This document shows positions 60,357-60,939 of a DNA stretch of 64,000 nucleotides, piece by piece (the first letter of the stretch is position 1; the number at the start of each line of letters is the position of its first letter). The translations under genes were made by a program, and so were the position numbers. The stretch lies in assembly GCF_018390635.1 (NCBI RefSeq), contig NZ_JAHBGE010000078.1, positions 62,001 through 126,000 on the forward strand, given 5' to 3'. The notes beneath the pieces were generated by a model. That model was not told the origin of the DNA, did not search any database, and saw only the letters and a list, made by a program, of their open reading frames with translations. The DNA comes from Ancylobacter lacus. GTDB taxonomy: Bacteria > Pseudomonadota > Alphaproteobacteria > Rhizobiales > Xanthobacteraceae.

Positions 60357-60821
60357 TCAGGCCGCCGCGCGGTCGGTGATGGCCGCCGCCGGCGCATCCG
60401 CGCCGGTGCTGATCGGGATCTGGCGCGGCTTCTTCGCCTCCGGCACCTGCCGGACCAGCTCCACATGCAGCAGCCCGTTTTCGAGGCTGGCGCCGCGGAT
60501 CTCGACATGGTCGGCAAGCTGGAAGCGGCGCTCGAAGGCGCGCGCGGCGATGCCCTGATACAGCACGTCGGCGGACTTTTCCGCCACCTGTTTCTCGCCG
60601 CGGATGGTGAGGGTGTTCTCCTTCACCTCGATGCCGAGTTCCCGCTCGGAGAAGCCGGCCACCGCCACGGTGATGCGGTAGGCGTTCTCGCCGGTCCGCT
60701 CGATGTTGTAGGGGGGATAGGTGGTGCCGTTATCGACGCCGCCGACCTGGTCGAGCAGCGAGAACAGCCGGTCGAAGCCGACGGTGGAACGATAGAGCGG
60801 CGAAAGATCGAACGTACGCAT
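60357..60821 (-). CDS. Small heat-shock protein, Hsp20/IbpA type
   Basis: ATP-independent holdase of 154 aa. N-terminal arm MRTFDLSPLYRSTVGFDRLFSLLDQ is the class A rhizobial sHSP/IbpA type; the alpha-crystallin domain spans about 35-125 (YPPYNIERTGENAYRITVAVAGFSERELGIEVKENTLTIRGEK ... FERRFQLADHVEIRGASLENGLLHVELVR) and the I-x-I anchor is IPIS near the end. ATG 60821 has GGAGG eight bases upstream; the ATG at 60827 is too close to that site. A thermometer-like hairpin covers the ribosome site, and an RpoH-like promoter lies upstream. Confidence 0.95.
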   Translation of the reverse strand: MRTFDLSPLYRSTVGFDRLFSLLDQVGGVDNGTTYPPYNIERTGENAYRITVAVAGFSERELGIEVKENTLTIRGEKQVAEKSADVLYQGIAARAFERRFQLADHVEIRGASLENGLLHVELVRQVPEAKKPRQIPISTGADAPAAAITDRAAA

Positions 60822-60823
60822 AA

Positions 60824-60849
60824 GCATATCCTCCTTTGAAGCGACATGC
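60824..60849 (-). ncRNA. ROSE-like RNA thermometer hairpin
   Basis: In the mRNA leader, GCAUGUC + bulged G + CUUC pairs with GGAG + GAUAUGC around an AAA loop: 11 bp with two G-U pairs, covering the whole GGAGG ribosome site. The single bulged G opposite the Shine-Dalgarno and the UCGCU box match the diagnostic 3' hairpin of ROSE elements, known before small heat-shock genes in Rhizobiales. Two further GC-rich hairpins can form upstream in the roughly 85-base leader (about 60850-60910). At low temperature the site should be masked, then melt on heating. Confidence 0.75.
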
Positions 60850-60911
60850 GCGCGGCCCGCTCTCCTGAGCCGGGCCGGGCCTTGCACCGCCGTCTGGCCG
60901 GTGCGTTCCTG

Positions 60912-60939
60912 ACATGGTGAGGGATTTTTCGCCTGCAAG
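60912..60939 (-). promoter_or_regulatory. Candidate RpoH (sigma-32) promoter of the Hsp20 gene
   Basis: On the minus strand CTTGCA (60939-60934), a 16-base spacer and CCATGT (60917-60912) resemble the alphaproteobacterial heat-shock consensus CTTGAA...CCATAT. Transcription from here would give a leader of about 85 bases, the right size for a ROSE element. Confidence 0.5.

Follow-up and report, generated by a model that had tools for sequence, protein, structure and literature searches.

The window, a 64,000-nucleotide stretch of the Ancylobacter lacus genome, encodes on its minus strand an Hsp20/IbpA-like small heat-shock protein (sHsp), one of three Hsp20 genes in this genome (Table 1). The protein matched Pfam PF00011 with E 8.9e-21 (the query carried one extra codon) and the NCBIfam IbpA model with E 8.2e-53 and 178.2 bits, under the equivalog cut-off of 212. 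The ATG at 60821, 8 nt past a GGAGG Shine-Dalgarno sequence, is most likely the start codon; an alternative in-frame ATG at 60827 sits just 2 nt past GGAGG. The sigma32 (RpoH)-type promoter upstream fits the consensus NNCTTGAA-N13-18-CNCCATAT given in the available part of PMC3669281, and a sigma-70 promoter scan found nothing. Transcription probably starts near 60905, and the leader of about 85 nt behind the promoter comprises three hairpins, with hairpin III last.

Table 1 Features of the window leader and of related loci.
Feature	Position	Strand	Basis
Hsp20/IbpA-like sHsp, 154 aa (MRTFDLSPLYRS...)	60357..60821	(-)	Pfam, NCBIfam
Putative thermosensing hairpin III, UCGCU and bulged G opposite the Shine-Dalgarno sequence	60824..60849	(-)	Folds, alignment, pair parse
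Shine-Dalgarno GGAGG	60830..60834	(-)	Sequence; distance to start codon 60821
Hairpin II region	60850..60881	(-)	Folds; 3 pairs with both-sided changes in the genus
Hairpin I, GCACCGGCC-AGAC-GGCGGTGC	60884..60904	(-)	Folds; 2 pairs with both-sided changes in the genus
Whole ROSE element, Rfam RF00435 match (model 1-94)	60815..60904	(-)	37.6 bits, E 3.7e-4
Sigma32 (RpoH)-type promoter, CTTGCAG, 13 nt, CACCATGT	60912..60939	(-)	Sequence
Second sHsp gene with sigma32-type promoter and short ROSE-like leader	L132:1274-1374 (G000:C27), outside the window; start 1372
Additional sHsp copies in the genus with ROSE above the cut-off	G005:C61, G011:C27, G019:C4, G021:C1:927900, G025:C203
ROSE directly before a sigma32-like gene	L022:1501-1594 (G130:C170); start codon 1588		87.8 bits
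ROSE directly before a small protein of 116-137 aa	L044, L045, L046, L047, L048		59.8-61.3 bits

A three-hairpin leader over the ribosome site

Hairpin III, GCATGTCGCTTCAAAGGAGGATATGC (minus strand 60849-60824), is built from 7 bp, a bulged G, 4 bp and an AAA loop, and GGAGG is completely paired inside this 11-bp stem in the minimum-energy fold. The first-pass annotation had described the stem with its single bulged G, AAA loop and wholly covered GGAGG, and its letters and coordinates are correct; the UCGCU that it had placed on the opposite strand was found there in both the sequence and the fold. The minimum-energy fold of the entire leader contains exactly hairpin III plus two hairpins upstream, and none of 200 dinucleotide shuffles was as stable (z -3.16). 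We took the definition of a ROSE-type thermometer from the accessible text of PMC3669281 and PMC11342760, and an excerpt of PMC4166951 describes ROSE elements as sHsp 5' leaders with two to four hairpins. The window leader precedes an Hsp20 start and has three hairpins, its 3' hairpin sets UCGCU, an instance of the U(U/C)GCU motif of such thermometers, against GGAGG, and the column of its bulged G is likewise unpaired in the consensus of 30 genus sequences. The ROSE-like anatomy ahead of the Hsp20 gene is therefore supported, and the leader length and upstream heat-shock-type promoter, also offered as consistent with ROSE, hold up.

Nearest-neighbour folding gave GGAGG a mean unpaired fraction of 0.012 at 25 °C and 0.048 at 42 °C. 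With the bulged G deleted in silico, opening GGAGG cost 10.2 instead of 5.4 kcal/mol at 42 °C, and freeing it 11.2 instead of 6.1 kcal/mol at 37 °C. This effect agrees with P. stuartii oppF (PMC11342760) and Pseudomonas ibpA (PMC3669281), in which, according to the available parts of both papers, stabilising deletions weaken or abolish heat induction. When the upstream leader alone was shuffled, 41 of 200 sequences masked the ribosome site at least as well as the native one; masking of the ribosome site is nothing special in DNA this GC-rich. Multi-temperature folding was rejected as proof of a thermometer, since the predicted opening is gradual and shuffled leaders often mask the site too. 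As it predicts gradual opening only, such folding does not establish melting in the right range. What lies beyond chance is the motif, its position, its conservation and its covariation.

RF00435 (ROSE) spanned the full leader when 501 bases were scanned with all 4227 Rfam families. In a search of the whole genome (4.6 Mb), for which 150 of 415 first-look candidates were scored, the leader was the sole RF00435 match reported at E<=1 (E 8.1e-4). The covariance score anticipated by the first-pass annotation therefore exists, at a value under the curated cut-off of 45 bits, which is why a whole-window Rfam scan at cut-off shows an ffh RNA only (RF01793, 7518-7569 on the plus strand, 50.9 bits, above its cut-off). 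RF02523 (ROSE_3; cut-off 43 bits), which we take to represent the Pseudomonas ibpA elements, had no match listed at the leader at E<=10. A Twister-sister match across the same leader (E 2.3) was considered chance. Our own covariance model R1, built from the genus and with the window sequence in its training set, gave the leader 83.8 bits.

No genus orthologue of the window gene reached the cut-off of RF00435; of the 30 scanned, 20 gave weak matches and 10 none. Above the cut-off, RF00435 matched in 5 of the 30 genus genomes (7 matches, 51.7-64.7 bits), every time at an additional sHsp copy (Table 1); the window genome has no extra sHsp copy with ROSE above the Rfam cut-off. In a named set of 80 loci from relatives, 0 of the 20 scanned reached the cut-off, and ROSE was seen at the leader in 4 of those 20 at E<=1. 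The suggestion that this copy extends the known range of the family did not survive: 38 of 149 Xanthobacteraceae genomes have ROSE above the cut-off, and according to PMC4166951 the first ROSE element comes from Bradyrhizobium.

Conservation and covariation of the leader

Every one of the 30 genus genomes, own genome included, has the Hsp20 orthologue with its leader; three of these leaders are identical to A. gelatini, A. koreensis and A. dichloromethanicus records. UYGCU occurred in all 30 (mononucleotide-shuffled mean 2.0) and was in place in all named relatives but L055 (77 of 78; shuffled mean 6.0). The named loci are the best 80 of 558 confirmed relatives, mostly Hyphomicrobiales, from which two were dropped for too short upstream DNA. 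An earlier motif count over too narrow a range (63/78) was superseded by the wider one. For the promoter, four patterns were tried. The final one, CTTG-N16-22-CYATNT, was found upstream in all 30 genus orthologues, with 0.07 expected from mononucleotide shuffles, but in just 24 of the 78 named relatives, with 0.20 expected. The promoter is thus firm within the genus and not established for most of the wider set. A loose pattern, run without a control, gave 30/30 and 49/78; two patterns that missed the window itself (27/30 and 24/78; 27/30 and 40/78) were discarded.

Run on the 30 leaders, RNAalifold returned the same three hairpins as its consensus, and 6 of the 28 pairs show both-sided changes. 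Five of these lie in hairpins I and II (Table 1) and one in hairpin III, at the loop-end pair, which is unpaired in 6 of the 30 leaders; 9 of the 11 hairpin III pairs are invariant across the genus. The genus alignment contained 40 both-sided-change cells, against 11.3 in shuffles and 0-5 with slid partners, and 99.1% of its cells were paired, a share that dropped to 34-52% with partners slid. The count of "further pair types" in the genus was no higher than in shuffles, 347 of 500 of which reached the observed value. A wider alignment fitted to the model, A3, held 229 both-sided-change cells against 50.3, counted over all 64 rows, including five non-sHsp-leader rows (three in the window, two in L103) and L104, whose match stops about 35 nt short of the gene.

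Pairs were also parsed independently of any covariance model, in 106 of 108 leaders, with L055 and L124 left out; this parse put two genus rows off register and scored them as unpaired at three columns, where the genus alignment pairs all 30. Since a leader enters the parse only with the motif and GAG, the columns of the motif and GAG cannot vary in it. Across 76 named relatives, motif position 2 was C-G in 49, U-G in 14, U-A in 11 and unpaired in 2, and the pair directly below it was G-C in 37, G-U in 31, A-U in 4, C-G in 1 and unpaired in 3. Farther down the hairpin III stem, pairing outside the genus is much reduced: pairs 2-5 below the motif were paired in 54, 45, 44 and 33 of the 76, counts that hold for the register parsed.

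R1 found 58 of the 80 named loci at E<=1; three of these are from Ancylobacter, and in one, L104, the match stops short of the gene. At E<=0.01 it matched 51 of 249 order-sample and 12 of 240 class-sample genomes, own genome included in each, and five loci fetched from these wide-sample matches all lay at an Hsp20. In L112, a metagenome assembly, the anti-Shine-Dalgarno strand CATGTCGCTTCTTGCG is tandemly duplicated 5' of the sHsp start (about 558-591), and genome G012 has a second weak R1 match (C1:424926-425005, E 0.007) away from both of its listed Hsp20 places.

These data bear on the explanation that sigma32 transcription is the sole control and the hairpin a by-product of GC-rich DNA and a conserved ribosome-binding site. 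A sigma32-type promoter does exist upstream, and shuffled leaders mask the site often, as noted above; yet UYGCU and the hairpins are kept with compensatory changes, which had been named as a test of the reading and are present in the genus and in the wider set, and we regard transcription as the only control as very improbable. Still less credible is a leader that serves as a protein- or small-RNA-binding site, with the heat response running through a DNA- or RNA-binding factor: conservation alone cannot separate a binder from a thermometer, and the first ROSE element was initially taken for a binding site according to an excerpt of PMC4166951, but hairpins I and II conserve pairing rather than sequence at several places, and PMC3669281 reports that the conserved sequence of hairpin III melts unaided in the ibpA leaders of Pseudomonas.

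A second, short leader and ROSE elements at other genes

The second Hsp20 of the window genome (L132) is 45% identical to the window Hsp20 over 126 residues. Ahead of it lie a CTTG...CCCATAT promoter and a short leader (L132:1303-1374) containing CAAAGUCGCUUGAACGAGGGCUUUG. All 30 genus genomes have this short leader with the promoter and the motif CAAAGUCGCUU...AGG(A/G)CUUUG. In the genus consensus fold there are two hairpins, of which the second carries a bulged G and pairs the Shine-Dalgarno sequence; both-sided changes occur at 3 of 19 pairs, every one in the first hairpin. With 45.0 bits, the window genome's own copy scored lowest of the genus members seen (others 76 or more), and the two-hairpin fold is not its minimum-energy structure (z -0.28).

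A covariance model of the short leader, R2, matched at E<=0.01 in 140 of 149 family-sample genomes (7 of the 149 from the genus used to build it), representing 46 of 47 genera, and in 64 of 249 order-sample genomes, 9 of them Xanthobacteraceae. All 58 loci fetched from R2 matches lay at the start of a second-type sHsp. An alignment of 52 loci fitted to the model, one being the window genome's copy and the only genus member, held 69 both-sided-change cells, where shuffles gave 23.4 and slid partners 2-14; in the ribosome-site helix, 3 of 11 pairs had both-sided changes and the outermost was often unpaired (12 of 26). Rfam at cut-off called none of the 20 scanned among those 52 loci, and the second and third (L133) Hsp20 genes of the window genome had no Rfam ROSE match at E<=5. 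Weak ROSE_3 matches to the short leader appeared in 2 of 12 genus loci (E 1 and 3) and in one of 20 other loci (E 0.96). An hspH ROSE element is mentioned in the available part of PMC3989490; the short leader may be that element or another published one, and novelty is not claimed.

Among 30 family loci fetched with RF00435, 24 lay at an Hsp20 and 6 elsewhere (Table 1). The gene behind the ROSE element of L022 encodes a sigma32-like factor (NF005143, above cut-off), and the protein's first residues, judged by eye, resemble an sHsp start; this is a single case in a single genome, on a 3135-base contig. In the same genus, 27 of the 28 next-best ROSE loci precede an Hsp20, and the remaining one, L276, leaves its contig after an sHsp-like start. 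The other five elements stand before a small protein that had no Pfam match over cut-off in L044, L045 and L047. Relatives such as L288-L290 encode the same small protein close to an sHsp gene that has the ROSE motif, and in L312 and L313 the protein directly follows a ROSE motif. ROSE was described in 2014 as "always associated" with sHsp genes (PMC4166951, available part), and ROSE-like elements ahead of ABC transporter genes were reported in 2024 (PMC11342760, available part); we do not claim that non-sHsp targets are absent from print. As a tentative reading, to which we give somewhat less than even confidence, ROSE control in the Xanthobacteraceae may be broader than catalogued, with a short two-hairpin leader (CAAAGUC-G-CUU...AGGACUUUG) uncalled by any Rfam model gating another IbpA-like sHsp in nearly all sampled genomes, and with ROSE moved onto non-sHsp genes (the sigma32 gene and the small protein), probably via loss of an intervening sHsp gene.

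Relation to known thermometers and proposed mechanism

The ROSE element of rhizobial sHsp genes was first described before Bradyrhizobium japonicum hspA. With rhizobial ROSE (RF00435) the window element shares the sHsp leader, the three hairpins of the Rfam consensus, the MRT-type start and a last hairpin that sets UYGCU and a bulged G against the Shine-Dalgarno sequence. It differs in its score of 37.6 bits, under the 45-bit cut-off, in lacking four positions and in three non-standard pairs in the outer extension of the last hairpin. In the RF00435 model this extension reaches the start codon; it is incomplete in the window element, so the start codon is probably free. The short Pseudomonas ibpA thermometers (PMC3669281) have the same sensing hairpin and gene family, whereas the window element is longer, has three hairpins and matches RF00435, not ROSE_3; it is the second, short leader of the window genome that they resemble. 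The ROSE-like thermometers of ABC transporter genes, in the accessible text of PMC11342760, share U(U/C)GCU and the bulged G and differ in the genes controlled. A limited literature search found no published ROSE element for Xanthobacter, no thermometer paper on Ancylobacter and no paper on ROSE_3 as an RNA thermometer.

Taken together, sequence and structure make it very probable that the window leader is an RNA thermometer of the ROSE type that governs translation of the IbpA-like sHsp; the initial observation is confirmed and its interpretation supported. Heat would raise transcription from the sigma32-type promoter. Independently, hairpin III would pair the anti-Shine-Dalgarno strand CAUGUCGCUUC with GGAGGAUAUG in the mRNA leader, and because GGAGGAUAUG is held in this way, ribosomes would be blocked at growth temperature. 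The stem of hairpin III, loosened by its bulged G and U-G pairs, would open progressively on warming and free the ribosome site 8 nt 5' of the AUG. Hairpins I and II may act as stable scaffolds that aid hairpin III folding. We infer both the melting temperature of hairpin III and the translational heat induction in the cell.

The window element is ordinary yet well supported, a type of switch already known from relatives, and adds one more probable ROSE thermometer to a lineage where ROSE is common. Because the Rfam cut-off misses its whole orthologue group in the genus, annotation under-reports thermosensing. More interesting leads come from the second leader and the retargeted ROSE elements: the short leader, together with ROSE at a sigma factor and at a small protein, offers a natural series for following thermometer diversification and change of target.
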